A stretch of 64,000 nt of DNA, taken from positions 28,713 through 92,712 of the forward strand of contig PBJL01000008.1 in assembly GCA_002721105.1 (NCBI GenBank). The letters run 5' to 3'. Below, in pieces: positions 37,446-53,577 of the stretch. Under the pieces are notes generated by a model that had not been told where the DNA came from, made no database searches, and saw only the letters and a program-made list of their open reading frames with translations. This DNA is from Acidiferrobacteraceae bacterium (GTDB taxonomy: Bacteria > Pseudomonadota > Gammaproteobacteria > Arenicellales > UBA868). The first letter of the stretch is position 1. Each line of letters begins with the position of its first letter. Position numbers and translations under genes: made by a program.

Positions 37446-38213
37446 ATGATTGATTTAACTGGAAAGAAAATATTAGTGACTGGGGCCTCTAAGGGTATTG
37501 GTGCTGCCATTGTTCAGAATCTAGCAGCAGCAAAGGCTAGTGTTATCGCGCATTACTGCTCTGATGAAGATGGGATGAAGGAGGTGGTTGGATCTCTGAA
37601 TACTGAGGATATTGTGACCTTTCAAGCCGATTTTAGAAATAAAGATGATGTCCATGACCTCTGGAATAACGCTGTCAATTGGCGTGATGGTGTCGACGTT
37701 TTAATTAATAATGCTGCAATCATTCGTTTTGTTGGCGGCATCGATGATAGCGAGGATGAATGGCAAGAAACATGGGAAGATACCCTGGCTGTCAATGTAA
37801 TGGCTCCATGCAATCTCATGCGTCGAGCAGTCCCTCACTTTCGAGATAATGGCGGAGGAATAATTATTTCTATTTCGAGTTGGGTAGCCCATCGCGGTCC
37901 AGGCACGCCGGCAATGATCGCCTATTCGGCTTCCAAAGCGGCCGTATTGAATGCCACCAAGAGTATTGCGAGGCATTATGCTGAAGATAATGTGCTTGCA
38001 TACAGTATAGCGCCAGGTGTAGTTCGGACCCGTATGTCAGAACAGTTTGCAGAAGCCGCGGGAGGCGAAGATAAAGTCACACAAGCTTTGGCAATGAAAG
38101 AATGGATACCCCCGTCTGATCTCGCAAACCTCACCGCTTTTTTATCGACCGGTACCTGTCGACATTTAACGGGCGCCACATTGGATGTTAATGGAGCAAG
38201 TTATCTTAGGTAG
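37446..38213 (+). CDS. Short-chain dehydrogenase/reductase (SDR)
   Basis: 255 aa. TGASKGIG cofactor motif, NNAAI after strand 4, catalytic Ser in ISISSWVAH and YSASKAA (Tyr, Lys). Ends HLTGATLDVNGASYLR, as in FabG-like SDRs. ATG 37446 chosen, since upstream residues in frame are not SDR-like; weak ribosome binding site. Converges with the Old Yellow Enzyme gene. Confidence 0.9.
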   Translation: MIDLTGKKILVTGASKGIGAAIVQNLAAAKASVIAHYCSDEDGMKEVVGSLNTEDIVTFQADFRNKDDVHDLWNNAVNWRDGVDVLINNAAIIRFVGGIDDSEDEWQETWEDTLAVNVMAPCNLMRRAVPHFRDNGGGIIISISSWVAHRGPGTPAMIAYSASKAAVLNATKSIARHYAEDNVLAYSIAPGVVRTRMSEQFAEAAGGEDKVTQALAMKEWIPPSDLANLTAFLSTGTCRHLTGATLDVNGASYLR

Positions 38214-38232: not shown

Positions 38233-39378
38233 TTAAGCTAAGGTATTAATTTTTGGATCTACATTAAGACTCTGATCACGGCGTTCAAGATAGAAGGCAT
38301 ACGAGGGGGGTAGCACATCATGAGGCGCCCCATGATCTAATTTTAGAGCTGCATTGTATGCCCAGTTTGGGTTCGATATCATTTCTCGGGCTAATGCAAT
38401 TAGATCAGCTTTATTTTCGTTAAGTATTTTTTCGGCATGTTCTGGTTCAATGATCAAACCTACCGCCATTGTTTTTATACCTGTTTTTTTTCTTACTTGA
38501 TCTGCATAAGGCACTTGATAGCCTTGCGCATTCTTCGCTTTAGAAAGTGTGGCTGGGCCTAGCATGCCACCGGATGAGCAATCAATAACATCTATACCGC
38601 GAGCTTTGAGAGCTTTTGATAACTCTACTGTATCCTCGATAGTAACTCCGCCCGGAACATTATCGACAGCGGATACTCGAAAAAAAAGTGGTTTTTCGTC
38701 GGGCCAAACGCTTCGGACTGCTTCGGCTATCATTAATGGAAACGTTAATCTACTCTTAAGATCTCCACCATACTGATCATTTCGACGGTTCGAAATAGGG
38801 GAAAAAAAAGAGTGGATCAAATAGCCATGAGCCCCATGGATTTCCACAGTGTCAAAACCGGCAGTTAACGCACGTTTTGTAGCTGCAGTGAATGCTTCAA
38901 CTGTTTCGAGTATTTCATTCTGAGTCATGCCACGAGGTAAGGGATGCCCTTCTTCCTCTGGTATAGCACTGGGTGCCATTCTTTCCCATGGTGGCTCGTC
39001 TATATCTCCTTCGGGAATTGGATGGGCGCCATCCCAAGGTCTTACTGCACTTGCTCTACGGCCCGCATGACCTATTTGAATACCAACTGCTACTTGCTGA
39101 GATTTATAGAGATCAACAATTTTTTTCAAACCATCGATATGACTATCGTCCCAGATGCCGGTGCACCCATGTGTGATGCGTCCTTCCGGCGTAACTCCTG
39201 TCGCTTCTACAAAAGATAAGGCTGGGCCGCCGTAGGCAAACCGGGCATGATGGCCAAAATGCCAATCTTGGACATGACCATCTATAGCCATATATTGACA
39301 CATCGGAGAAACAACAATTCGATTTCTAAGGAGCAGGCCCCTTAATTGCAGTTCACTGAATAATTGAGGTGTTTTCAT
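38233..39378 (-). CDS. Old Yellow Enzyme-family NADPH:flavin oxidoreductase (YqjM/NamA type)
   Basis: 381 aa from the ATG at 39378 (TTG 39393 possible). FMN-site Cys in VVSPMCQY marks the YqjM-like class; HGAHGYLIHSFFSPISNRRNDQYGG is the OYE signature, and LAREMISNPNWA closes the barrel. Reduces C=C bonds of enones/enals with NAD(P)H. About 50 bases downstream of the DapA-family gene on the same strand, so likely an operon. Substrate class unknown. Confidence 0.93.
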   Translation of the reverse strand: MKTPQLFSELQLRGLLLRNRIVVSPMCQYMAIDGHVQDWHFGHHARFAYGGPALSFVEATGVTPEGRITHGCTGIWDDSHIDGLKKIVDLYKSQQVAVGIQIGHAGRRASAVRPWDGAHPIPEGDIDEPPWERMAPSAIPEEEGHPLPRGMTQNEILETVEAFTAATKRALTAGFDTVEIHGAHGYLIHSFFSPISNRRNDQYGGDLKSRLTFPLMIAEAVRSVWPDEKPLFFRVSAVDNVPGGVTIEDTVELSKALKARGIDVIDCSSGGMLGPATLSKAKNAQGYQVPYADQVRKKTGIKTMAVGLIIEPEHAEKILNENKADLIALAREMISNPNWAYNAALKLDHGAPHDVLPPSYAFYLERRDQSLNVDPKINTLA

Positions 39379-39430: not shown

Positions 39431-40375
39431 TTAAGCCGCTAATTTTTTCTCTAGTTCATCCATAAGTATATCCAATTGTTCAATCATAGCAGCGAGTTTT
39501 TTAAGTCTTTGTTCGCCTTCGCTACCGAGTTCATTGAAGGTGGTAAGTGGTGGGCGGACATCACCCACTGGATAACCAACTGCTCTTGCTAACGCTTTGG
39601 AGTAGCATTGATGGCCATAGGTCGGATGACCTTCCCCAATCACCTCCTGCATTGTATCAATAGAATGTTGGATTTCTTTGGCTTCGGTGACTTGTCCATT
39701 TATCATCATTTCACAAAAGCGCGAAGAAGCACGTGGTATGTAGTTACCATAAGGATTAACGTACCCTACTGCTCCCATTAAATACGATTCAACGACCCGT
39801 TCGCCTGCGAATACATTCATCACGCCATCTGTTGCTTCAATGATATCAAACACACGGGCAGCGTCCATACTAGCTTCCTTAATATACCGCACCTGTTCGA
39901 ATGATTTAGTCAGATCTGCTACAAGCCGCGTTGGCATGTCTATATTAGATGTGAACGGGTTATTGTAAAGCATGATTGGTAGGCTTACTTTTTCACAGAT
40001 AGCCTTATAGTAGTTGTATATTTCTTCATGAGTGGGTGTATAGTAGTAAGGTGGAAGAATCATTAGTCCGTCCGCTCCCAACTCTTCAGCCTCCTTGCTG
40101 TATCTAACTGCCGTTGGTGTATGAGCGTTCATGGTGCCAACCAAAACAGGCACACGTTGATTGACATGTTGCACTGTTGATTCTACAAATGCTTGCCTTT
40201 CTTCATCCCGGATTGTTAAAAATTCGCCTGTGGTTCCAAGTATGATGATGCCTGGAACCCCAATGTTAAGTTGCCAATCAAGAAAATTTCTCCATGCTTC
40301 AAAATCTATATTGGATAAATCTTCGGTAAATGGGGTGACCGCGACGGTATAGCTACCACGGAAATGGTGAGTCAT
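39431..40375 (-). CDS. DapA-family pyruvate aldolase/deaminase-like lyase
   Basis: 314 aa. Schiff-base lysine Lys166 in RYIKEASMDA, Tyr137 in MLYNNPFTS, and LGTTGEF. Strong ribosome binding site AGGAGG 7 bases upstream. Besides DapA and KDG aldolase, the family includes 1-pyrroline-4-hydroxy-2-carboxylate deaminase, which works after a FAD-type D-hydroxyproline dehydrogenase; a FAD amine oxidase is encoded divergently here, so that pathway is conceivable but the epimerase and aldehyde dehydrogenase are missing. Confidence 0.85.
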   Translation of the reverse strand: MTHHFRGSYTVAVTPFTEDLSNIDFEAWRNFLDWQLNIGVPGIIILGTTGEFLTIRDEERQAFVESTVQHVNQRVPVLVGTMNAHTPTAVRYSKEAEELGADGLMILPPYYYTPTHEEIYNYYKAICEKVSLPIMLYNNPFTSNIDMPTRLVADLTKSFEQVRYIKEASMDAARVFDIIEATDGVMNVFAGERVVESYLMGAVGYVNPYGNYIPRASSRFCEMMINGQVTEAKEIQHSIDTMQEVIGEGHPTYGHQCYSKALARAVGYPVGDVRPPLTTFNELGSEGEQRLKKLAAMIEQLDILMDELEKKLAA

Positions 40376-40501: not shown

Positions 40502-41632
40502 ATGAATGCAATTGAGATGGAAACGGATGTGCTGGTGATTGGCGGCGGCATTTCTGGTTGTGCTTTAGCATATTTCTTGGCTCAAGAAGGCCTTGAGATT
40601 ATGTTGGTGGAAAGATCGGGATTAAACAGTGCTGCCTCTGGTTCAAATTCAGGCAGTCTTCATGGACAGATACCCCATGACACATTTCTCGAAAAGGGTG
40701 AAGAATGGGCGCATAGTTTTGGTCCGACTTTAGGTTTGATGCGAGAGTCGCTCGATCTCTGGAAAACTATAGAAGACATTCTAGATGCTGACTTGGAAGT
40801 TAGACTCGTCGGGGGACTTTTAGTAGCCAAGACTGAATCGGAGATGAAAGCTATTAATGCGAAAGCAGTGATAGAGAATAAATTTGGGATTGAATCTGAG
40901 TATCTTGATAGAAATGACCTCAGAGATATTGCGCCATACATATCAGAGGATATGGTTGGCGCAATGTTTTACCCAGATGAGGGAAAAGCTAATCCTTTGC
41001 TTGTAGCTCCTGCGTTTGCAGTGCAAGCAGAGAAATTGGGCGTACACATATTCAGACAAACAGAAGTTGTCGGTATTGCAAAAGAAAAAACTACTTTTAG
41101 GGCGCACACAACGAAGGGGGCCATTCGTTGCCATCGTGTCGTGAATTGCGCAGGAATTGATGTTAGCCGAATTTGCGCGATGGTTGGTGTTGAGGGTGTT
41201 ATTAAAGCGAGCCCAATACAAACTAACGTAACAGCACCCATTCCATCCTTAATAAAACATCTTGTATATTCTGCTAGTGACCGCCTAACACTAAAGCAAA
41301 CTACAAATGGATCGTGCCTAATAGGTGGTGGCTGGCCGAGTAATTTGGATTCTTCTACTGATCGCTTGAGTGTGAGCTATGATTCTGTTGTAGGCAACTT
41401 GGCAGTTGCAATTGAAATGGTTCCTCAACTAGAGGCTGCGCAGTTAGTTCGAACCTGGCCGGCGCTAGTGAATGGAACAGATAATTGGATCCCAATTTTG
41501 GGAGAGTCTGATAATGTTAGCGGGTTTTTTGTAAGTGCTTTTCCCTGGATGGGTTTTACAGGAGGATTGATCGCAGCACAATTAACGGCAGATATGTTGA
41601 TGAATCGACCTGCTCATCCTTTTACTCTCTGA
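40502..41632 (+). CDS. FAD-dependent amine/amino acid oxidase (DAO family)
   Basis: 376 aa. N-terminal FAD motif VLVIGGGISGCALAYFLAQEG (GxGxxG), then SSGSNSG-like AASGSNSGSLHGQ and C-terminal GFFVSAFPWMGFTGG. DAO superfamily members oxidise sarcosine, glycine, D-amino acids or dimethylglycine. Sixty-eight bases upstream of the GcvPA-like gene and co-directional, so likely in one unit with it. No membrane anchor, no signal peptide. ATG 40502 retained; in-frame ATG six codons later lacks a better binding site. Confidence 0.88.
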   Translation: MNAIEMETDVLVIGGGISGCALAYFLAQEGLEIMLVERSGLNSAASGSNSGSLHGQIPHDTFLEKGEEWAHSFGPTLGLMRESLDLWKTIEDILDADLEVRLVGGLLVAKTESEMKAINAKAVIENKFGIESEYLDRNDLRDIAPYISEDMVGAMFYPDEGKANPLLVAPAFAVQAEKLGVHIFRQTEVVGIAKEKTTFRAHTTKGAIRCHRVVNCAGIDVSRICAMVGVEGVIKASPIQTNVTAPIPSLIKHLVYSASDRLTLKQTTNGSCLIGGGWPSNLDSSTDRLSVSYDSVVGNLAVAIEMVPQLEAAQLVRTWPALVNGTDNWIPILGESDNVSGFFVSAFPWMGFTGGLIAAQLTADMLMNRPAHPFTL

Positions 41633-41700: not shown

Positions 41701-43113
41701 ATGGATAAGGTTGGCACAAAAGCACACCCCTATATGCCAAGTTCTGCTGGCAATGCTCGATCTGACATGCTCGGTGCGCTTGATATAAAAGATGTTGGGG
41801 AAATTTTTGAACAAATTCCTGAAACACATCGACGAAAATCACCGTTGCAGTTACCTGAGCAACTTGCGTCAGAGCTAGATCTAAAGCGCCATTTATTGTC
41901 CGTACTTTCGCAGAATGGGAATTGTGAGGACAATTTAAACTTTTTAGGTGCCGGTTGTTGGCAGCATCATGTGCCATCTATTTGTGATGAAATTGTAGGG
42001 CGGGCAGAATTTTTGACTAACGTTTGGGGAACACCGTCGTCTGATCATGGACGAAATCAAGCTCTTTTTGAGTTTTGTAGTCAGCTTGGCGATTTGTTGA
42101 AGTTAGATATGGTCGGGCTTCCAGTTTATAGTTATGGCTGTGCATCAGGCCATGCTATTCGTTTAGCTTCCAGAATTACCGGCAGGAAAAAAGTATTAAT
42201 TCCGAGAGTTATCGATCCTGAAAGAAAAGCAGTTGTCGTAAATTACTGCGCTCCAGAAAATATGGATGATCATATTGAGATCGTAGAAATAAATAGCGTT
42301 GCTGCTTCAGGAGGGATTGACCTTGAGCATTTGGAAAAAGAATTGTCAGACGATGTTGCGGCCATATATTTTGAAGTGCCTAATTATTTTGGGCTTATAG
42401 AGCAGCATGGACAAATAATTTCTGAATTAGCAAGAAAGAATGGTGCGAAAACTATTGTTGGTTGTGATCCAATTTCTTTGGGCATCCTTCGATCGCCGGT
42501 TGATTATGGAGCTGATATCATCGTCGGCCCCGTTCAACCGCTTGGCGTGCATATGAACTGTGGAGGTGGAGTGAGTGGATACATCGCCACCCCCGACGAG
42601 GAAGTTTATGTTAGGGAATACAATACACTCAACATAAGCATTACTGAAACTGAAGTAAAAGGCCAATATGGGTTTGGATTGAGTTGTGCTGGACAAACTT
42701 CTTATGGTTTAAGGGAGGCCGGAAAGGATTGGACCGGGAATTCCACTTATCTCTGGGCTATTTCAGGGGCAGTTTATATGGCTCTCATGGGCCCTTCAGG
42801 ATTTCGTGAAATTGGTGAACTGATTACACAGCAGTCAAATTATGCCGCGCAACTGATGTCTGAAATTGAAGGCATCAAAATGCACTTTGACGCGGTTGTG
42901 TTTAAAGAATTTGTCTTGAATTTTGACGATACAGGATTTTCGGTAAGGGATATTAATGCGAGACTCCGAGAGCGTAATATTTTTGGCGGCAAGGATCTTT
43001 CTTTAGAATTTCCAGAGCTCGGGCAAAGTGCGTTGTATTGTGTAACGGAAATCCATACGCAAAAGGATATTGAAAGGCTAGCTACTAGTTTAAAAGAGGT
43101 TCTCTCCTCATGA
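41701..43113 (+). CDS. Divergent glycine dehydrogenase subunit 1-like PLP-fold protein (GcvPA-like)
   Basis: 470 aa. Overall order of GcvPA (LNFLGAGCWQHHVPSICDEIVGRAEFLTNVWGTP) is recognisable, but the canonical TPYQPE-x2-QG loop becomes WGTPSSDHGRNQ and NASLYDGATA becomes LPVYSYGCASGHA. This suggests an altered substrate pocket. Good ribosome binding site. Its stop overlaps the start of the next gene (ATGA), as expected for a two-subunit enzyme. No gcvT, gcvH or lpd in the window. Most likely a relative of the glycine decarboxylase P-protein with a different amine or amino acid substrate. Confidence 0.82.
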   Translation: MDKVGTKAHPYMPSSAGNARSDMLGALDIKDVGEIFEQIPETHRRKSPLQLPEQLASELDLKRHLLSVLSQNGNCEDNLNFLGAGCWQHHVPSICDEIVGRAEFLTNVWGTPSSDHGRNQALFEFCSQLGDLLKLDMVGLPVYSYGCASGHAIRLASRITGRKKVLIPRVIDPERKAVVVNYCAPENMDDHIEIVEINSVAASGGIDLEHLEKELSDDVAAIYFEVPNYFGLIEQHGQIISELARKNGAKTIVGCDPISLGILRSPVDYGADIIVGPVQPLGVHMNCGGGVSGYIATPDEEVYVREYNTLNISITETEVKGQYGFGLSCAGQTSYGLREAGKDWTGNSTYLWAISGAVYMALMGPSGFREIGELITQQSNYAAQLMSEIEGIKMHFDAVVFKEFVLNFDDTGFSVRDINARLRERNIFGGKDLSLEFPELGQSALYCVTEIHTQKDIERLATSLKEVLSS

Positions 43114-44657
43114 AGAATAATAATCTAAGAGCATATCACGCCCCGGTTTGGGATGAACCAGTTATTGCAGAGATGGGCTCTGAAGGCAGACGTGGTATCG
43201 TGTTTAGGCCAGCGAGTCAAGATATCATTGATCGCGTTGGTTCCGTAGATAAATTGATTCCAGAACATATGATTAGAAACGATCGGCCGGCTTTGCCAGA
43301 AATGTCGGAACAGGAAGTCCAGCGTCATTTTTTGCATCTCTCCCAAGAAACGCTGGGGATGATGGGCATCAGTTTATTTGGCACTTGTACTATGAAATAC
43401 AACCCAAGACTGAATGAGCTTATTGCCTTACGACCTGAGATTGCTGAGACTCATCCACTTCAAGATGAAAGCACATTACAAGGCACACTGCAATTAATTC
43501 ATAACTTTGATTTAATTCTACGAGAGTTATCGGGTATGGATAAATTTGTTTTTCAAGCCGGCGGTGGTGCGCATGCGGCATATACACATTGTTGTGTGAC
43601 TAGGGCATACCATGCATCGAGAGGTGAGCTAGAGAAGAGAAATGAAATCATAACCTCCATACAAGCTCACCCATGTAATCCAGCTACAGCTGCGGCAGCG
43701 GGTTTTGACGTGATTACCCTACCTCTTGGGGATAATGGTTACCCAACCCTTGATGCATTGCGAGAAGCAGTTTCAGATCGTACAGCAGCTTTATTGATCA
43801 ACAACCCCGATGATATGGGAATTTATAATCCTGAGATAGTTGAGTGGGTTAAGATTGTGCACCAGGCAGGCGGACTGTGTTTTTATGATCACGCTAACTT
43901 CAATGGAGTAATGGGAAAGATAAAAGCTAGAGAGTTGGGGTTTGATGCTTGCATGTACATGCTTCATAAAACATTTGGGGCGCCCAAAGGTGGTGGTGGT
44001 CCCGCTGTTGGTGCCTACGGTTGTAGTGCAGATCTTGCTCCATTCCTGCCATCGCCCGTAGTTACTCATTCGGAAGGTACTTATCATTTGGATTATCACC
44101 GTCCAAAAACTATAGGCCGTATCCGTGAATTTTGGGGAAACGTTCCTCAAGTCATAAAAGCCTATTCTTGGGCTCGGGCCATGGGCGCTATAGGGATTGA
44201 AGAGGCTGCTGAAATTTCCGTGTTAGCAAATAATTATATGGAATCAAGATTGCTCAAGATTCGTGGAATCACTAAATCCCACCCGAACATCGGTGGCCCA
44301 AGAATGGAGATGACACGTTATAGTATTGAAAAGGTTACTGAAGAAACGGGTGTTACTGTCGATGATCTTAGTAATCGTATGGTCGACTTTGGTATTGATG
44401 CGCCGTGGCTAGCCCATCATCCTTGGCTGATTCCACAGCCCTTTACACCAGAAGCTGGCGAGACTTACTCAAAGGAGGATATTGATTACTGGATCGATGT
44501 TGTGGAAGAAGTGATTCGAGAAGCCTATGAAAATCCTGAGGTAGTAAAAGCCGCACCTCATCGACAAGCGATTGGTCAAATCCGCTCTGGGCCACTGGAT
44601 GATCCCACTCAATGGGCTATGACTTGGCGAGCATATAAGAGGAAAAATCTAGACTAA
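43110..44657 (+). CDS. Divergent glycine dehydrogenase subunit 2-like PLP enzyme (GcvPB-like)
   Basis: 515 aa. Carries the PLP lysine Lys287 in MLHKTFGAPKGGGGP, so it is the catalytic subunit. Other landmarks are modified: canonical HGTNPASA appears as HPCNPATA, NPNTLG as NPDDMG, DGANLNA as DHANFNG, and the PHGGGGPG loop as PKGGGGPA. Fold and cofactor are secure; the reaction is not. It partners the preceding A-type subunit. About 90 bases later comes a SnoaL-like gene. Could be a decarboxylase acting on another amino acid, possibly releasing an amine for the FAD oxidase. Confidence 0.85.
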   Translation: MKNNNLRAYHAPVWDEPVIAEMGSEGRRGIVFRPASQDIIDRVGSVDKLIPEHMIRNDRPALPEMSEQEVQRHFLHLSQETLGMMGISLFGTCTMKYNPRLNELIALRPEIAETHPLQDESTLQGTLQLIHNFDLILRELSGMDKFVFQAGGGAHAAYTHCCVTRAYHASRGELEKRNEIITSIQAHPCNPATAAAAGFDVITLPLGDNGYPTLDALREAVSDRTAALLINNPDDMGIYNPEIVEWVKIVHQAGGLCFYDHANFNGVMGKIKARELGFDACMYMLHKTFGAPKGGGGPAVGAYGCSADLAPFLPSPVVTHSEGTYHLDYHRPKTIGRIREFWGNVPQVIKAYSWARAMGAIGIEEAAEISVLANNYMESRLLKIRGITKSHPNIGGPRMEMTRYSIEKVTEETGVTVDDLSNRMVDFGIDAPWLAHHPWLIPQPFTPEAGETYSKEDIDYWIDVVEEVIREAYENPEVVKAAPHRQAIGQIRSGPLDDPTQWAMTWRAYKRKNLD

Positions 44658-44745: not shown

Positions 44746-45234
44746 ATGAAAGATTTAGTGACTAAGCTAATCGACGAGCGTGCCATAACCAATCTTCTGA
44801 TAGAGTATTGTCGCGCACTTGATGCAATGGATCTCAAAGCAATCGAAAAACTTTTTTCCGAGGATTGTGTCGTTGAATTTGGACCCGATGAAAGACTAAA
44901 CAGTCAAGGATCGAAAGAGGTTGCAAAGTCGCTCGAACGAATGTGGCGATGGGTTAGGACTTCTCATCATTTATCAAATGTACAGATTTCGTTCTACGAC
45001 AAGGATCGAGCGTCTTCGATTAGTTATGTGCTTGCTTGGCATGAGCGAGCTGATATGACCACCGCCATTATTTATGGCCAATATCATGATGATTTGAGAC
45101 GTGATATTGAGGGTTGGCGAATCGTGAAAAGGGTGATGTATATGAATGGGAGTGATGCTGGATTTACAGTGAACATCCATCCATTTACACGACAGGGTCC
45201 TCCCGACGATTGGACTCCTCCGAATATTGACTAG
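44746..45234 (+). CDS. SnoaL-like (NTF2-fold) protein
   Basis: 162 aa. IDERAITNLLIEYCRALDAMDLKAIEKLFSEDCVVEFGPDE is the SnoaL_4/ring-hydroxylating beta-like opening, and GWRIVKRVM its closing strand. Cone-shaped alpha/beta barrel with a cavity for small hydrophobic ligands; enzymatic role unknown. It follows the GcvPB-like gene and runs into the convergent NAD-kinase-like gene (2-base gap). Confidence 0.8.
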   Translation: MKDLVTKLIDERAITNLLIEYCRALDAMDLKAIEKLFSEDCVVEFGPDERLNSQGSKEVAKSLERMWRWVRTSHHLSNVQISFYDKDRASSISYVLAWHERADMTTAIIYGQYHDDLRRDIEGWRIVKRVMYMNGSDAGFTVNIHPFTRQGPPDDWTPPNID

Positions 45235-45236
45235 TT

Positions 45237-46355
45237 TTAAGCCGCTTTGATTCTCATCACGTGCGTATTGTGTTTGTTGGTCCGCACTTTAATATAACCT
45301 GCGAGTTCGTGATCTAATTTTTTATCACCAGTATCAACGAGAAGAGATTGTTCTTGTAAAGAGTGAATTTTTGCCGGAGTGGCGATTACAAGAATATTTT
45401 TTTTTGATACTCGTCGAATTATCTTGGGTGTGATCTGCTGATTGCCTCGCCCGAACAAAAATCCTTGACCTCCAATTATTCCAGAAATGATATAGATAGG
45501 AGAATTTGTAGGGAGCGCTTCCAGCTGATGTTCATTAACGTCATGACTGATTAAGGTTTTCCCTTTTATGACGTCTACTCCGAGCAAAGTTCCTGTTATC
45601 CCAATTTTCTTGAGAATTGTGTATGTAGTTTTACCTGGACCAACAATATAAATAGCATCCTGTCTTAGGTTTTTTTTAAAAAATTGGGAAAGTCCTTCAA
45701 TAGATTGATCATCAGTCGGAATAGCATGATTCTTTGGATTTTGGGTTAATAACTGGTTGTCGGGGATGTTTACGTAGCCCACTAATTTAGTCTGGATAAG
45801 TTCATGTTTTCTTAAATTTTCATCGAGATCCATCACCTCTGCCGCTCTTATGGGGAAACTATCATATCCATCTTTTACAATTTGGCTGACTAAGACTCCG
45901 ACTGAGCTAGGGCTCGTACCGAATAAGGCAGAGTGCATTTTGACTCCCGTAGGAATACCCAAGATGGGTGTGTTTCCATCAAGTGATTCCAAAATATCAC
46001 AGGCAGTGCCGTCCCCACCGGCAAACAGAATTAGGGATACCTTTTGTTCCACCATTTTGGTGACAGCGTTTTTGGTGTCACTTTTTGTGGTGTTTGTCGT
46101 TGACACGCTAATTATTGTCGGAGTGAGGCCAAGATTTTTGCACACATATTCGCCCATTTCGCCGGTGCACGTAATGGTTGAGAACTTGTCGGTTAAGAAT
46201 TTTAATGGGCGTAGCGCTTGCTCGGCTCGCTTTGCAGACTCCTTTGTCCCTCCGAGCCGTAATGCTTCAGCAATCGCTTTTTCGCCATCAGTTCCTTTTA
46301 GGCCGGTTTTGCCTCCGAGGCCAGCGATTGGATTAACTATTAAACCAATTTTCAT
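45237..46355 (-). CDS. ATP-NAD kinase/AcoX-like family protein
   Basis: 372 aa. Starts MKIGLIVNPIAGLGGKTGLKGTDG and contains FAGGDGTACDILESL (GGDGT, kinase motif of the NADK/diacylglycerol kinase superfamily) and GIPTGVKMHSA. These match the long NADK-like/AcoX-related family of unknown substrate rather than NadK itself. ATG 46355 used, since the extra N-terminal frame to 46466 is not family-like. No clear ribosome binding site. Confidence 0.82.
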   Translation of the reverse strand: MKIGLIVNPIAGLGGKTGLKGTDGEKAIAEALRLGGTKESAKRAEQALRPLKFLTDKFSTITCTGEMGEYVCKNLGLTPTIISVSTTNTTKSDTKNAVTKMVEQKVSLILFAGGDGTACDILESLDGNTPILGIPTGVKMHSALFGTSPSSVGVLVSQIVKDGYDSFPIRAAEVMDLDENLRKHELIQTKLVGYVNIPDNQLLTQNPKNHAIPTDDQSIEGLSQFFKKNLRQDAIYIVGPGKTTYTILKKIGITGTLLGVDVIKGKTLISHDVNEHQLEALPTNSPIYIISGIIGGQGFLFGRGNQQITPKIIRRVSKKNILVIATPAKIHSLQEQSLLVDTGDKKLDHELAGYIKVRTNKHNTHVMRIKAA

Positions 46356-46619
46356 TTGTATAATTTTTGTAAAATTGCATAATGATCTTAATACAGCTTC
46401 ACTTCGCTGTTTTTGTACGGATCGCCCATTATCAGGTAAGTAAGCTAAACCTGAAACATTAGTCAAGATACCTGTTAAGGCGTTAATTGTTGATCAAGAT
46501 TGACATGTAGCACGAATAGTTGTTAATAATCTACTTTAGCATTACATAAGTGAAAAAGAACTATAACTGGTGATCAGAGGTCGCCGATAATTAATGAAAT
46601 GGATTCCAGAGGGTCAAAA

Positions 46620-48374
46620 ATGAAGAATAAAGAAGTCAGTCAACTGGGGCTGGATATTTGGACTTGGAGGGCAAGCCAACAACCTTGTTCTGGCGATGAT
46701 ATCCCGCGACTACCTAAAAGTGGCGAGTCACAAAGAGTTTCGATCACTACATCACGAGGTCACGAAAGCAGGCCCGAGGGATGGCGCCCTGAATTTTCTG
46801 CTGTTGCTGTGGAGAAATATAGAGCAGAGCGAGCCATTTTCATGCAACGCTGGAAAGATATAGACCCATCTGTTCTCTCGGTTAGTGATGCCGTAGATCA
46901 TCGTTTATTGGGTTCTCTGTTGTCCCGGGTGTATTGGGAGCTGGACGTTTTGCGAAGTTGGGAGCGGGATGCTTTATTTTGGGTGGATCAGGCATTGGGC
47001 CCATATATGGATTTATTACTGGAGCCAGCGCCGTTCTCAGAACAACGCGCAGTTTCTGTGGTGAAGGCGCTTGAAGATGCCCCAGCAATTTTCTCTGAAG
47101 CATGTTCGGCTCTTGACGGAACAGCAGTTGCCCCCTTCGCAGAGGCTGTGATTGAGCAACTTACTTCAGGAGTAGATATTCGAGGTGGGAAATTTCCTGA
47201 TATTGGTGAAAGAATTGCGATGTCGGCTGGATTTTTGACGCCACATCTGCCTCAACATCTTCATGAACCCCTAGCAATGGCAGCCAAAAATGCGGGAACT
47301 GCTGCAGAGGACTTTCGAAAATGGTTAGAGGCAAGAGTGGGCTCAATGAAAACGGATACAGCCATTGGGCGAGATGTTTTTGTATGGTTTTTAAGAAACG
47401 TAGCTCTAATGTCTGAAGATCCTGAAGAGTTAGTTGCTGGTGCTCGTAGAGAGTACTCCAGGTCTTTAGTATGGGAAAAGCTGTCGGAACATCGGGCGCG
47501 CTCAATTCCTCTCCCTCCTTTGCCTAGTAACGCAGAAGAGCAATGCGAAATTGAAGCAAGAGATGAGCAATCAATTCGAGATTTCTATGTCAACAGTGGC
47601 TTATTATCCCAGCCGAATAACCTTGGTCACTATCTAAATGCTCCCATTCCAGATTATTTGGCCCCGATGGGATTTTTAGCTGTTACGAATGATTTGACTG
47701 ATGAATATCGTCTTGATAAAGATGGTGTGTCCTATGTACCTGACCCTGGCCTCGAACTGGGTTATTTTCATGCAGCAAATGCCCGAGATCCTAGGGCTGG
47801 GATTGTTCACGAGGGCGTACATTACCAGCAACTTGCTTTATGTTATCGTCATGAGAATCCCTTGCGTCGGCGATATTACGACTCAGGATCTAATGAAGGA
47901 ATAGCACATTACAATGAAGAATTGATGCTGCATGCAGGTTTGTTTGATGATGCTCCACATACAAGAACTGTGATTTGGAACTTCATGCGTCTGCGCGCTT
48001 TGAGGGTGGAAGTTGATGTTGGTTTGGCGACCGGAGATCTTTCGCTTGAAGAGGCAGCCAGACATTTTTCCGATAAAGTTGATGTTGATCGTGCTACTGC
48101 TCTTAAGGAAAGTGCTTTTTATGCTGGAAATCCTGGAGTAGCGCTTGCGTATCAGGCAGGGAAGCACCAGTTGATGAAACTTGTTGGCAAGGCAATAGAA
48201 AACGAAGGGAAAACTTTTGATTTTCAAAAGATTCATGACTCGGTTTGGAACGATGGAAATGTACCATTTTCATTGCTTAATTGGGAATTAAACGGATGCC
48301 GTGATGATCTAGATAAAATAGATGCTGATCCACTTACTGGCACAACTCCGCCAGTTCCTGCTTATGAGTTATAA
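46620..48374 (+). CDS. DUF885 zinc metallopeptidase-like protein
   Basis: 584 aa. HEGVHYQQLAL supplies an HExxH zinc motif (His397, Glu398, His401) and SNEGIAHYNEELM the third ligand region, with LRVEVDVGLATGDLSLEEA further on, all DUF885 landmarks. No signal peptide, so cytosolic. Homologues are thought to be carboxypeptidase- or dipeptidase-like; not proven. ATG 46620 has AGAGGG upstream; ATG 46599 is possible. First gene of the 46.6-59.3 kb catabolic cluster; a hydrolase there fits amide-type substrates. Confidence 0.85.
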   Translation: MKNKEVSQLGLDIWTWRASQQPCSGDDIPRLPKSGESQRVSITTSRGHESRPEGWRPEFSAVAVEKYRAERAIFMQRWKDIDPSVLSVSDAVDHRLLGSLLSRVYWELDVLRSWERDALFWVDQALGPYMDLLLEPAPFSEQRAVSVVKALEDAPAIFSEACSALDGTAVAPFAEAVIEQLTSGVDIRGGKFPDIGERIAMSAGFLTPHLPQHLHEPLAMAAKNAGTAAEDFRKWLEARVGSMKTDTAIGRDVFVWFLRNVALMSEDPEELVAGARREYSRSLVWEKLSEHRARSIPLPPLPSNAEEQCEIEARDEQSIRDFYVNSGLLSQPNNLGHYLNAPIPDYLAPMGFLAVTNDLTDEYRLDKDGVSYVPDPGLELGYFHAANARDPRAGIVHEGVHYQQLALCYRHENPLRRRYYDSGSNEGIAHYNEELMLHAGLFDDAPHTRTVIWNFMRLRALRVEVDVGLATGDLSLEEAARHFSDKVDVDRATALKESAFYAGNPGVALAYQAGKHQLMKLVGKAIENEGKTFDFQKIHDSVWNDGNVPFSLLNWELNGCRDDLDKIDADPLTGTTPPVPAYEL

Positions 48375-49188: not shown

Positions 49189-49905
49189 ATGACAAGAATA
49201 AGATACATTGAGCCTGTTGATAGTGACTTATACCATGAGAGTAGAACGGCTTTTATGTCAAAGATAGCATCTCCCGGCACCAAAATAGAGGTGTGTAATG
49301 TGAGTCTCCCACCAGAATTGGCGGGCCCTATGCTTCCTCCTGTACCGCTTTATTTGAATGAAATAATTCGTGAGGTTCTGAAGGCGGAGGAGGATGGGTG
49401 TGATGCTGCAATTATTGGTTGCTGCTCAGATCCAGCACTTTTGGATGCGCAACGTGCTGCTCGGATTCCAGTTGTGGGACCGCTTCAAGCCGCGGCAGCT
49501 ACCGCTGCGGGTCGGGGATTGCGATTGGGAATCCTTTGTCCAGATGAGCATGCGTGGAAAATAACAGCTAATTGGTTACGTGGAAATCTGCGTCACTATG
49601 GGCTCGATCAAGTGGTGGGACCCATTCGTTTTGTCCCGATGCGATCCCCGGGAGAGACGGAGGAGATCATTGGAAATACTGAATTGACTTCGGACGAAGT
49701 TGATAACCTATTTCGCAAGAAATTGCATGAAAATGCTGTACCTGTTGCCAACAAGTTGCTTGAAGAAGATGCGGCGCAAGCGGTTTTGTTTGGGTGCACG
49801 TTATGGGGCGGAATGATTCACGAGGTGTCTGAAGTTGTGGACGCTTTATGTTTGGATCCTGTCATTACCGCTGTGCATTTTGCAGAATATCAAGCGAGTC
49901 TGTAG
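49189..49905 (+). CDS. Asp/Glu/hydantoin racemase family protein
   Basis: 238 aa. Two catalytic cysteine sites typical of the family: IIGCCSDPALLDAQRA (Cys78/79) and VLFGCTLWGG (Cys203). The opening RIRYIEPVDSDL replaces the usual (I/L)NPN, and the middle matches hydantoin racemases (VVGPLQAAAATAAGRGLRLGIL). Interconverts D/L hydantoins or amino acid enantiomers. Adjacent hydantoinase A and B genes support a hydantoin or lactam substrate. A second member is at the right edge of the window. Confidence 0.88.
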   Translation: MTRIRYIEPVDSDLYHESRTAFMSKIASPGTKIEVCNVSLPPELAGPMLPPVPLYLNEIIREVLKAEEDGCDAAIIGCCSDPALLDAQRAARIPVVGPLQAAAATAAGRGLRLGILCPDEHAWKITANWLRGNLRHYGLDQVVGPIRFVPMRSPGETEEIIGNTELTSDEVDNLFRKKLHENAVPVANKLLEEDAAQAVLFGCTLWGGMIHEVSEVVDALCLDPVITAVHFAEYQASL

Positions 49906-49981
49906 AGATTATTGGATTTTTTAACAAGTCTGAGCTACGTATGACATTTTCTGGCTCTAAACAACATGTGGAGACTGTGTT

Positions 49982-51982
49982 TTGGTTAATCGTATAGGAG
50001 TAGATATAGGGGGCACATTTACTGATCTAGTTGTAGAAGGTTCCGGCAGTGAAAACCGAATTGGAAAAGTTTTGTCAACGCCTGGTGATCTGGTCCAAGG
50101 TGTGCTCCAAGCTGTCCAGGCATCTGGAGTTGATCTGGCCGAAAGTGAACTTTTTGTTCATGGTACTACCGCTGGAATCAACAGCGTGCTCGAAAGACGG
50201 GGTGCTCGGGTTGCTTTGATTACGACTAGGGGTTTTCGGGATGTATATATTATTGGACGAGGGCACCGCGCAGACATGTATAACTTGCGATATCGGAAAC
50301 CTCAGCCATTGGTATCAAGAGAAGCTATTTTCGAGCTGACTGAACGCTTAGATTCGGATGGATCTACCCTTCATGCGATAGATGGAAAAAGTCTGGCTAC
50401 CGTTCTTCAAGATATAAAAGATGGTGAGTTTGAAGCGATAGCTGTGGCGCTTCTTCATAGTTATGTCAACCCAGCGCATGAGCTCGAAGTACGACGTTAT
50501 TTTGAAGAACATCTGAATTCTATTCCTGTTGTACTGAGTCACGAAGTAGCGCCGGAATGGCGTGAATACGAGAGAACCTCAACCACGGTTGTTTCGGCTT
50601 ACATTACACCAATTGTTCAAGATTATTTGCATCGCTTAACAAAAGAACTTAGGGAAAAGCAGCTTAAAGTGCCTGTACATATTACTCAGTCAAATGGAGG
50701 TGCTATGTCAGCGACCCAGGCGACCCAGCAGGCAGTTCTAACGCTTTTTTCAGGACCGGTTGGTGGTGTGGTTGGAGGTCGTGAGGTGGGGCGTTCCATT
50801 GACGAGGAAGACTTAATTTGTATTGACATGGGCGGTACTTCATTTGATGTGTCACTTATTAGAGGTGGCGAAGTGGAACTAAAATCTGAGTTTGATCTGC
50901 AAGGATTGCCAATTTTAGCGCCATCAGTCGAATTAGTTTCGATTGCGTTGGGTGGTGGGAGCATCATTCATGAGGCATCAGGTGGTTTACGAGTTGGTCC
51001 TCAGTCTGCAGGCTCAACCCCCGGTCCAGCGTGTTATGGACGAGGTGGAACACTTGCAACTATCACCGATGCTAATGCCGTTTTAGGCCGCTTACCGGCA
51101 GATCAATTGTTAGCAGGAAGTTTGGAGCTTGATATTAATGCAGCTCACAATGCTATAGATACTGTGGGTAACCAGCTAAAGCTTGATTCGCTTTCTACCG
51201 CGGAACAGGCACTAGAAGTAGCGCATTTTAAAATGGCCCAGGCGATTAGAGAGCTTACGGTAGAGAGAGGCTTAGATCCTAGAGACTTTTCTATTTGTGC
51301 ATTTGGTGGTGCGGGACCATTGCATGCTGCATTCGTAGCGGACGAATTACAGATAAGACGTATCATAATTCCCTCAGAGGCGGGAGCGTTTTCAGCATGG
51401 GGAATGCTTCAGGGCGATCTGCGTCACGATGTCTCAGTAACTTATTATCGTAAATTTAATGAAGCACAAGTTGATATCGGAGAAGCTTTGCAGAGGCTAC
51501 GAGAGCGCGTTCAAGATCGAGTCAGGGACGATGGGGCCGATGTGGCTTCATTGCGTTACGAGCCTAGCGCTGAAATGCGTTACATTGGACAAGAGTATTC
51601 TCTTCTGGTTCCCACTCCATCGAATACTGCGGATCAGGAATTGCTTCAGTCATTTCATGATGCCTACTATCTTAGATATGGGCACTCACAACCAGATGCA
51701 CCGGTCGAATTTGTCTCGCTCCGTATGGCTGGCATAGTCTCTTTTGATCGAACTGACAGTATGGTACAAGTGTCGCAAACCAGCACCAGCAAACCTATTG
51801 GTGAGACGAGGGTATTGTTTAATAGAGAACCCTATAATGTTCCGATCTACTCACGCAGCAATCTTGGAAGTCGAGTGAATGGTTCCGCCATAATTATTGA
51901 GGAATCAACCACAATATTGGTGCCAGACTCGTGGTCTATTGAGCCGGTTCGTGGTAATCATTTAGTTATGGAGCGTCATTAG
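49982..51982 (+). CDS. hyuA: Hydantoinase/5-oxoprolinase subunit A (N-methylhydantoinase A)
   Basis: 666 aa, full HyuA length. Two ATPase-fold phosphate loops, GVDIGGTFTDLVVEG (residue 8) and DMGGTSFDVSLI (about 281), plus EWREYERTSTTVVSAYITP and FGGAGPLHA. With HyuB it hydrolyses hydantoin, N-methylhydantoin or 5-oxoproline rings using ATP. TTG 49982 is used as start, since no ATG precedes the conserved GVDIGG; a GGAG lies about 10 bases upstream. Three bases separate it from hyuB. Confidence 0.93.
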   Translation: MVNRIGVDIGGTFTDLVVEGSGSENRIGKVLSTPGDLVQGVLQAVQASGVDLAESELFVHGTTAGINSVLERRGARVALITTRGFRDVYIIGRGHRADMYNLRYRKPQPLVSREAIFELTERLDSDGSTLHAIDGKSLATVLQDIKDGEFEAIAVALLHSYVNPAHELEVRRYFEEHLNSIPVVLSHEVAPEWREYERTSTTVVSAYITPIVQDYLHRLTKELREKQLKVPVHITQSNGGAMSATQATQQAVLTLFSGPVGGVVGGREVGRSIDEEDLICIDMGGTSFDVSLIRGGEVELKSEFDLQGLPILAPSVELVSIALGGGSIIHEASGGLRVGPQSAGSTPGPACYGRGGTLATITDANAVLGRLPADQLLAGSLELDINAAHNAIDTVGNQLKLDSLSTAEQALEVAHFKMAQAIRELTVERGLDPRDFSICAFGGAGPLHAAFVADELQIRRIIIPSEAGAFSAWGMLQGDLRHDVSVTYYRKFNEAQVDIGEALQRLRERVQDRVRDDGADVASLRYEPSAEMRYIGQEYSLLVPTPSNTADQELLQSFHDAYYLRYGHSQPDAPVEFVSLRMAGIVSFDRTDSMVQVSQTSTSKPIGETRVLFNREPYNVPIYSRSNLGSRVNGSAIIIEESTTILVPDSWSIEPVRGNHLVMERH

Positions 51983-51984
51983 AA

Positions 51985-53577
51985 ATGAAAAAAAATTCCA
52001 GTAGCCCAAGCCCAGGCACGGTTGAAGTTGTGAGGCACGCCTTTATTTCAGGTGCAGAGCAAATGCGTCGAAATCTATATCGCTCAGCCTTCAGTCCAGT
52101 AATATATGAGATGAAAGATTGTTCAGTGGGTATTTACAACTCCGAAGGTGCCTTGTTAGGTCAGGCACCTGGACTCCCTTTTTTCCTTGGAAGCTTGGGA
52201 GGAACTATTCGTGCTGTTATTGACATAAAAGGGAAACACGTTTTTGAAGAGGGTGATATATGGATTGTTAATGATTCTACGATTTGCGGAAGTCATCTGA
52301 ATGATGTTACCGTTTTTGCGCCGATTTTTGTCGAAGACACATTACGAGGCTTCGCAGGTGCTAAAGCGCACTGTAATGATGTTGGAGCTAAGGATCCAGG
52401 CTATGTTGGCGATACAATCGATATCTTCCAGGAGGGTCTTCGTATTGGCCCGACACGGATAGTCCGAGGTGGTGAGGTTGACCAGCAGATAATTGATCTA
52501 ATCGCGCTAAATTCAAGGTTCCCCACTGCGATTGTCGGAGACCTAATGGCTGAGTTTACAGCATGTCGAACCGGTGTCGCGTGCTTTAGGACAATCGTTG
52601 AACGGTTTGGCTGGCCACAAGTTTCATTGTCCATTGATGAAATATTTCGACAAGCTGAGGAGCTCGATCGTGTGTCGGTTAAAGAAATACCGGATGGTAT
52701 TTACTCCGCCGAAGGAGCGTTAGATAACGATGGAGTAACAAGTGATCCGATCAATGTTAAAGTGACAGTTCGCATAGAAAACGATGAGATGGAAGTAGAT
52801 CTAACCGGATCAAGCACGCAATGCATCGGTAGCGTTAATTCAGGAAGGGTACAAACTCGATCCGCAATAGAGCAGGCCTATAAATTCTTAGTCAATCCTT
52901 CAACTACCGTATCAGGCGGAAATTTCCGAAATCTTCGAACTATCATTCCTAAGGGCTCTTGCTTTAATCCCAGCGAGACAGCGCCTTGCCTTCATTATGG
53001 ACCTCATCTTATGCTCGCTATGGATTTGATTATTAAAGCACTAAGTTCGGCAGTGCCTCATCGCACGGCGGCTGGTCATGTTGGAGACTCATGGAACGTG
53101 ACCTTGGTCGGTGAAAACGAAGACGGACTATTCCTGTCTGGTGAGTCATTAGTTGGAGGTTGGGGTGCTTATGAGGGAGGTGATGGCGAATCGGCGCTAA
53201 TTCATTCGGCAGCTGGTGATTTTAAAAATTTCCCGGTCGAGACTATGGAGCAACGATATCCATTTCGTATCCTTAGATATTCACTTCGAGATGGATCTGG
53301 AGGTGATGGTGCTTGGATCGGGGGAATGGGCATAATTAGAGAATATGAAGTGCTTGCGCCTTGTCGCTTACAGCTTTGGTTCGAAAGGGTCGGTACACCA
53401 TCTTGGGGTTTGTTAGGAGGAAAGGATGGCGCACCACCGGATGTTTCCGTTATCTTTCCTGGAGAATCCCCTAAAAGCATTTACAAGGTTAATGCTCTAC
53501 CAATTCCTGCCGGAAGTCGGATTCTAGTAAAAACTGGCGGCGGCGGCGGTTGGGGATCAGCGGAGAATCGAATGTAG
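51985..53577 (+). CDS. hyuB: Hydantoinase/5-oxoprolinase subunit B
   Basis: 530 aa, full HyuB length. GAEQMRRNLYRSAFSPVIYEMKDCSVGIYN (KDxS motif), PFFLGSLGG and NDSTICGSHLNDVTVFAPIF with metal-type His/Asp, and GDGAWIGGMGIIREYEVL near the end. Catalytic partner of HyuA. Sits directly upstream of a 227-base gap leading to the ABC transporter genes; the two are co-directional but may have separate promoters. Confidence 0.93.
   Translation: MKKNSSSPSPGTVEVVRHAFISGAEQMRRNLYRSAFSPVIYEMKDCSVGIYNSEGALLGQAPGLPFFLGSLGGTIRAVIDIKGKHVFEEGDIWIVNDSTICGSHLNDVTVFAPIFVEDTLRGFAGAKAHCNDVGAKDPGYVGDTIDIFQEGLRIGPTRIVRGGEVDQQIIDLIALNSRFPTAIVGDLMAEFTACRTGVACFRTIVERFGWPQVSLSIDEIFRQAEELDRVSVKEIPDGIYSAEGALDNDGVTSDPINVKVTVRIENDEMEVDLTGSSTQCIGSVNSGRVQTRSAIEQAYKFLVNPSTTVSGGNFRNLRTIIPKGSCFNPSETAPCLHYGPHLMLAMDLIIKALSSAVPHRTAAGHVGDSWNVTLVGENEDGLFLSGESLVGGWGAYEGGDGESALIHSAAGDFKNFPVETMEQRYPFRILRYSLRDGSGGDGAWIGGMGIIREYEVLAPCRLQLWFERVGTPSWGLLGGKDGAPPDVSVIFPGESPKSIYKVNALPIPAGSRILVKTGGGGGWGSAENRM

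Follow-up and report, generated by a model that had tools for sequence, protein, structure and literature searches.

The stretch analysed here, a window of 64,000 nucleotides from contig PBJL01000008.1 (assembly GCA_002721105.1) of the gammaproteobacterium Acidiferrobacteraceae bacterium, encodes two adjacent genes whose products, here termed A and B, resemble GcvPA and GcvPB, the subunits of the bipartite glycine decarboxylase (P-protein). Both open reading frames (ORFs) are intact, lie on the same strand and overlap by 4 bases, and downstream of them is a kinase-family gene that the original prediction for this DNA, made from the sequence alone, did not mention. Pair and kinase are listed below by window position; residue counts refer to aligned rows of the family to which the pair belongs, divided into the motif types 1 to 4 described further on, and to rows of canonical P-proteins.

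41701..43113, + strand: A subunit, GcvPA-like, 470 amino acids (aa), without the pyridoxal phosphate (PLP) lysine; PF02347 at 154 bits, NF001696 at 403.5 bits; grouped outside canonical GcvPA.
42025..42060, + strand: A motif WGTPSSDHGRNQ (A 109-120), in place of TPYQPE..QG, with the Tyr of TPY (Tth Y98) deleted; the Y98 column is a gap in 36/36 family rows and Y in 18/18 canonical rows.
42118..42156, + strand: A motif LPVYSYGCASGHA (A 140-152), in place of NAS-x-x-DGATA; P141 in 36/36 against S in 18/18, and S144 in 36/36 against D in 16/18.
42700..42741, + strand: A motif SYGLREAGKDWTGN (A 334-347), in place of QHIRR..A.SNICTN; the stretch includes two positions from a published model of H-protein docking.
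43110..44657, + strand: B subunit, GcvPB-like, PLP-binding, 515 aa; NF003346 at 514.9 bits, 1wyt_B at E 5e-84.
43668..43691, + strand: B motif HPCNPATA (B 187-194), in place of HGTNPASA; P188 in 35/36 against G in 19/19, and C189 in 31/36 against T in 19/19.
43968..43970, + strand: PLP lysine K287 of B; K in 36/36 type 1/4, 4/4 type 2/3 and 19/19 canonical rows.
43983..44006, + strand: B motif PKGGGGPA (B 292-299), in place of PHGGGGPG; K293 in 36/36 type 1/4 rows, H in 19/19 canonical and in 4/4 type 2/3 rows.
44316..44318, + strand: R403 of B, an arginine gained in the EMTR motif; present in 35/36 type 1/4 rows (K in the remaining one) and in 4/4 type 2/3 rows, against V, I or L in 19/19 canonical rows.
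45237..46355, - strand: kinase of the ATP-NAD-kinase family, 372 aa if read from an internal ATG (from TTG, the ORF extends to 46466); PF01513 at 77 bits, PF20143 at 61 bits.

The pair is labelled as GcvPA/GcvPB in databases because both subunits exceed the NCBIfam 'equivalog' cut-offs (364 bits for GcvPA and 441 for GcvPB). Pfam finds GDC-P in A, and Aminotran_5 and GcvP2_C in B, and the Thermus P-protein subunits are the closest solved proteins by sequence for both. The two-subunit P-protein fold is thus recognisable by sequence in A and B and, for B, also in a monomer model whose fold matches at ranks 1-19 are P-proteins; the mean confidence (pLDDT) of this model is 68, falling below 50 over residues 287-298, and the active site is not argued from it. 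K287 of B aligns with the lysine of LHKTF in Thermus 1wyt_B. The original prediction was right that the fold and the PLP lysine are kept, and the four rewritten motifs it had pointed to are all present as written. The canonical set (TPYQPE, NAS-DGATA, HGTNPAS, PHGGGGPG) is absent from the pair, and the SYGLREAGKDWTGN stretch of A constitutes a larger rewritten region in addition to those four. The rewritten motifs are largely conserved across the best 120 A and the best 120 B homologues, with WGsP and YSwGCA as the commoner forms, and the changes are therefore attributable neither to chance nor to a sequencing slip.

Relatives at E <= 1e-10 number at least 3556 for B and at least 7688 for A (about 8000 candidates), figures that may include canonical P-proteins. 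On plasmids, A relatives were found in eight records at 50-61% identity, the next match standing at 31% (among the best 60 of 121 records). In trees of 36 of the 88 family rows and 18 canonical rows (14 bipartite and 4 fused, from 10 genome and 8 plasmid loci), the family rows form a single group with 100/100 support for both A and B, on stems of about 2.2 and 2.35 changes per site, respectively, and all canonical rows fall outside it. The group spans two bacterial phyla (Pseudomonadota and Actinomycetota) and one halobacterial plasmid record. The original prediction had proposed a P-protein-derived enzyme distinct from glycine decarboxylase, to be checked in a GcvP tree; the separate position of the pair, away from the P-proteins encoded beside gcvH, supports this proposal.

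When columns conserved in at least 92% of the 36 family rows and at least 85% of the 18 canonical rows are compared, 42 (15 in A, 27 in B) hold differing residues in the two groups, and 27 in A and 58 in B hold the same residue; K287, H187, D260, N263 and H286 of B are all retained in the family. Locus L100, from a plasmid of Deinococcus sp. QL22, was omitted from the canonical set for this comparison and retained in the trees; its GcvPA/GcvPB pair (L100:4040-9061) has nearly canonical motifs and no gcvT or gcvH within 4 kb, and is followed by MOSC-domain and class III aminotransferase genes. The window pair represents type 1 of at least four motif types. Type 2 comprises loci L113, L114, L117 and L120, type 3 comprises L108, L109, L118, L119 and L121, and type 4 is the archaeal plasmid copy L087; motifs were displayed for part of types 2 and 3, and L118, L119 and L121 were typed by tree position. 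The four types (27 rows) again form one group with 100/100 support against 19 canonical rows, with locus L112 counted as canonical in this tree and in the residue counts that use 19 canonical rows.

The family coexists with ordinary glycine cleavage genes. In 28 isolate genomes that carry relatives of the pair, hand-picked from the 80 genome loci of the family (a selection of the isolates there), GcvH was found above cut-off in every case, and all 28 encode an ordinary P-protein at 375-607 bits beside the family A gene (143-171 bits, PF02347). The best ordinary GcvP match is a fused chain in 22 of these genomes and bipartite in six (G003, G015, G019, G020, G023, G024). A gcvTH operon elsewhere in the window's own genome, with no other gcvP, would have spoken against a separate specificity, according to the original prediction; the second GcvP in each of these relatives shows the opposite arrangement, and the pair is very probably a paralogue with a new function. 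The genome of locus L074 (G023) also contains three clustered GcvH-family matches (contig C1, 251094-260141), besides one adjoining its ordinary gcvP, and the Streptomyces genome of L061 (G017) a third GDC-P match (contig C1, 38616-39923) at 213 bits, between the canonical and the family scores. A tblastn search of the 64 kb with the proteins of canonical loci found no gcvT, gcvH or lpd, which extends to the whole window the absence originally noted near the pair. Furthermore, gcvH is absent from the 87 family loci and the window and present in 16 of 18 canonical loci; gcvT-like fragments occur at a distance from A in L008 and L078, and an lpd-like fragment in L026.

One of the rewritten motifs touches positions that have been linked to H-protein docking. 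A study that modelled human GLDC docked with H-protein assigns salt bridges to Arg373 and Lys376 and counts Y161 and Y164 among the active-site residues (PMC7259800). Through the QHIRR and TPY motifs, Arg373, Lys376 and Y161 map to positions 337, 340 and 108 of the window A subunit. At the Arg373 position, where 19/19 canonical rows have R, the family mostly has S, L or M (the window has L337). The 36/36 type 1/4 rows show V, I or E at the Y161 position, and the Y164 column is a gap in all 36. These motif changes suggest independence from the H-protein, and the gained R403 of B may serve in binding a carboxylate or a phosphate. Several observations weigh against such independence: the Lys376 equivalent, A340 in the window, is still K in 9/36 family rows; in types 2 and 3, tyrosine still stands at the Tyr161 position (6/6) and histidine in PHGG (4/4); and gcvH, encoded in trans in 28/28 genomes, makes use of an H-protein by the pair possible.

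The most consistent companion of the pair is the kinase. Both NAD_kinase domains are present in the window protein, together with a weaker diacylglycerol kinase (DAGK) match, and GGDGT is invariant in 20/20 aligned sequences. Among the fold matches of its model (pLDDT 89), none goes below E 0.01; those of high probability include diacylglycerol kinases and one NAD kinase, with low TM-scores. Among 87 neighbourhoods chosen for A (80 genome contigs and 7 plasmid regions, at most 10 kb per side and many shorter), B is present in 86 and a kinase relative in 82, in 10 of which it lies upstream of A on the opposite strand. In 77 of 88 loci, window included, no called gene before A lies closer to it than the kinase; in the window itself, and likewise in the close relative L051, the kinase is found downstream of the pair and on the opposite strand. 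The five loci without a kinase are L001, L009, L027 (181 bases upstream), L059 (a 4.4 kb contig) and the L087 plasmid, where the kinase lies about 57 kb from A, near genes of the dihydrodipicolinate synthase (DHDPS), short-chain dehydrogenase (SDR), DUF885 and aminotransferase families. All eight plasmid records with an A gene carry the kinase, and relatives with the other motif types retain it. The order A-B-kinase-SDR recurs in 5/5 type 3 loci, near ABC permease genes (sugar importers by eye) and a GH42 beta-galactosidase that is Pfam-confirmed in L108 and L118 and identified by eye only in L109, L119 and L121; L108 also encodes an MGH1-like glycosidase and an SBP_bac_1 binding protein (Pfam).

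The association also holds across whole genomes sampled by class (thresholds of E 1e-100 for A and 1e-30 for the kinase). In 385 alphaproteobacterial genomes A was found in nine, the kinase in nine and both in eight; for 296 Actinomycetes the figures are nine, eight and eight, and for 229 Gammaproteobacteria one, three and one. Once the three centre genomes, picked for having A, are excluded, the pooled 907 genomes include 16 with A, 17 with the kinase and 14 with both (Fisher p 3e-26, uncorrected for shared ancestry), so that the kinase accompanies A in 14/16 genomes and occurs in 3/891 without it; in the gammaproteobacterial sample of 229, where A is present solely in the centre genome, the linkage is unsupported. 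In both A-only genomes the contig stops at or within B: in G252, a 6.9 kb contig with A and B breaks off after B, the point at which other type 2 loci continue with the kinase; in G706, a 3.3 kb contig runs on for 1.1 kb beyond the end of A. The sole alphaproteobacterial kinase-only genome has its kinase adjoining a GcvPA/GcvPB pair with canonical motifs (L112). Among 99 Pseudomonas genomes, five kinases score at least 427 bits, all five with A adjacent, and four further matches are weak (27-29 bits).

Kinase and PLP enzyme are hence genetically linked, with exceptions, and it is likely that both serve the same pathway. The exceptions that count against this reading are the loci L001, L009 and L059, with no kinase near A; two kinase-only gammaproteobacteria; five of 13 plasmid records with a kinase match and no family A gene; 17 of the 99 Pseudomonas genomes, with a kinase of 377-397 bits and no A within about 1.5 kb; and a kinase tree (46 rows, including six of these 17 unlinked Pseudomonas kinases and omitting L151 and L067) in which unlinked kinases fall among linked ones and the linked do not form one group. 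The canonical-motif pair of L112 (L112:6891-13019, alphaproteobacterial genome G115), beside the same kinase family, weighs in the same direction; its GcvPB reads as two overlapping pieces, and Epimerase-family and class I/II aminotransferase-family genes (threonine-dehydrogenase-like and KBL-like by eye) also lie beside it. A kinase exclusive to the pair was considered and rejected, given the occurrence of the family without the pair in Pseudomonas, on plasmids and in the kinase tree.

The likely interpretation is that A and B descend from P-protein, form a PLP-dependent heterodimer and have a role outside glycine cleavage. They would act in amine or amino-acid catabolism together with the kinase, frequently joined by an SDR, a DHDPS-family lyase and a DAO-family oxidase. 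The pair probably acts on an amino compound other than glycine; no substrate is named here, because neighbouring genes vary by lineage, and the candidates considered included hydroxylysine, phenylethanolamine and sphingoid bases. That degree of likelihood attaches to the interpretation without any specific chemistry, and the alternatives below compete on mechanism, with overlapping odds. In one such mechanism, the PLP on Lys287 of B would take up the amino substrate as the usual aldimine, the kinase would phosphorylate a hydroxyl of the substrate or of a neighbouring intermediate, the heterodimer would cleave the activated compound (by retro-aldol reaction, elimination or decarboxylation) without aminomethyl transfer to lipoyl-H, and the SDR and oxidases would process the product. 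Cleavage of a phosphorylated amino alcohol or hydroxy amino acid is suggested by the tie of a kinase to a PLP enzyme, by the SDR and by the type 3 glycosidases that would free a hydroxyl. Sphingosine kinase with sphingosine-1-phosphate (S1P) lyase, and ethanolamine-phosphate phospho-lyase, exemplify the logic of a DAGK/NADK-superfamily kinase joined to a fold-type I PLP enzyme, and analogy with these phospho-lyases suggests phosphorylation followed by cleavage. The likeness is one of logic, with no claim of membership by sequence. Among the fold matches of B, S1P lyase (8ayf) comes at rank 35, after the P-proteins and many cysteine desulfurases. As a specific chemistry, phosphorylation before cleavage is possible but tentative.

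About equally likely is that the kinase simply makes NADP. Under this explanation the pair would be a PLP enzyme of aminotransferase-like, racemase-like or C-C lyase type whose amino substrate is not phosphorylated, and a true NAD kinase would raise NADP for the SDR and other oxidoreductases. The recurrence of such oxidoreductases in the loci, the two NAD-kinase Pfam domains and the existence of family members without the pair are all consistent with it, but the linkage seen in Alphaproteobacteria and Actinomycetes is stronger than general NADP supply predicts, and an ordinary NAD kinase is presumably in the genome anyway; as a full account it remains doubtful. A lipoyl-H-dependent P-protein for another amino acid, in which a glycine analogue is decarboxylated, the product passes to an H-protein encoded elsewhere and the kinase supplies NADP(H), would agree with the GcvH of all 28 genomes, with an overall fold and PLP site that are those of P-protein, and with the kinase beside the canonical-motif pair of L112. 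We regard it as unlikely, since neither the 87 loci nor the window hold gcvH, gcvT is represented merely by the fragments far from A in L008 and L078, and type 1 for the most part no longer has the active-site tyrosines and the docking-model arginine. An ordinary, fast-evolving glycine cleavage P-protein, as the passed equivalog cut-offs would have it, is very improbable in view of the 42 differently conserved columns, the second, ordinary GcvP of 28/28 genomes and a separate group extending over two bacterial phyla and an archaeal record.

The preferred interpretation, a P-protein-derived heterodimer outside glycine cleavage, can be set beside two known systems. The pair resembles bipartite GcvPA/GcvPB of Thermus (PDB 1WYT/1WYU/1WYV) in its two adjacent genes, its fold and a PLP lysine confined to B, and differs from it in its rewritten motifs, its separate grouping, the lack of an adjoining gcvH, the usual kinase neighbour and the coexisting ordinary GcvP. 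AcoX of acetoin dehydrogenase operons, cited as a functional parallel, is similarly a predicted small-molecule kinase in a catabolic operon; its partner, acetoin dehydrogenase, is a thiamine pyrophosphate-dependent enzyme, unlike the PLP heterodimer. AcoX is reported to be a kinase-family protein required by a carbon-cleaving enzyme for unexplained reasons (PMC10943186).

The pair is widespread and mislabelled: many of the best 120 B homologues are labelled glycine dehydrogenase and 7/7 annotated plasmid A copies are called GcvPA, labels by which metabolic models may wrongly credit a glycine cleavage P-protein. No paper on this family was recognised in literature searches, as judged mainly by titles and the beginnings of abstracts, with most subscription papers and all preprints outside coverage. 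The conservation of a module of kinase and PLP heterodimer in Pseudomonadota, Actinomycetota and one halobacterial plasmid indicates a catabolic step that has yet to be assigned, and the P-protein ancestry of the module provides a natural experiment on the residues that make glycine decarboxylase need the H-protein. The P-protein fold is not known to carry out more than one reaction. A much broader proposal, which we consider improbable, derives from this fold a whole superfamily of split PLP lyases that depend on a kinase and have at least four active-site types. Without lipoyl-H, these would cleave amino alcohols or hydroxy amino acids in phosphorylated form, some of them freed from glycosides, and the kinase family would be a substrate- or cofactor-activating partner of carbon-cleaving enzymes. 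In that event the proposal would touch on the requirement for AcoX in acetoin catabolism as well.

The other genes around the pair recur less regularly.

37446..38213, + strand: SDR; 46/87 loci at >35% identity.
38233..39378, - strand: Old-yellow-enzyme-type flavin oxidoreductase (OYE); NamA-type NF010047 at 349 bits, below the cut-off of 431; 32/87 loci.
39431..40375, - strand: DHDPS-family lyase; PF00701 at 190 bits; 47/87 loci, 8 of them only at 25-32% identity.
40502..41632, + strand: DAO-family FAD oxidase; PF01266 at 198 bits; relative in 45/87 loci.
44746..45234, + strand: SnoaL-like small protein, between B and the kinase; PF13577 at 85 bits; 10/87 loci.

The DAO gene lies 68 bases upstream of the pair in the same direction, as first described, its ORF ending at 41632 and A starting at 41701. 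The original prediction had envisaged a clade always adjacent to such an oxidase and lacking gcvH; the second part holds for the loci themselves (gcvH in 0/87) and the first does not, since DAO relatives, counted at >30% identity, occur in 45/87 loci and the window order, with DAO about 0.2 kb upstream, is repeated only in L001 and L051. DAO was hence rejected as the defining partner. Neighbours differ by lineage, and include FAD-oxidase-like pairs, a class III aminotransferase, an AMP ligase, a copper amine oxidase, GH42 and ABC importers. Further along the window, positions 49189-53577 hold, in one direction, a 238-aa ORF (an Asp/Glu racemase by eye, with no NCBIfam match) and a caprolactamase alpha/beta-like pair below cut-off, genes that are hardly present in other loci. 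Adjoining the kinase, a DUF885-like ORF (46599-48374) has relatives by tblastn in 6/87 loci, close only in L001 and L051 (74-82%) and at 26-29% in the others, and an annotated DUF885 gene is found near the unlinked kinase of the archaeal plasmid.

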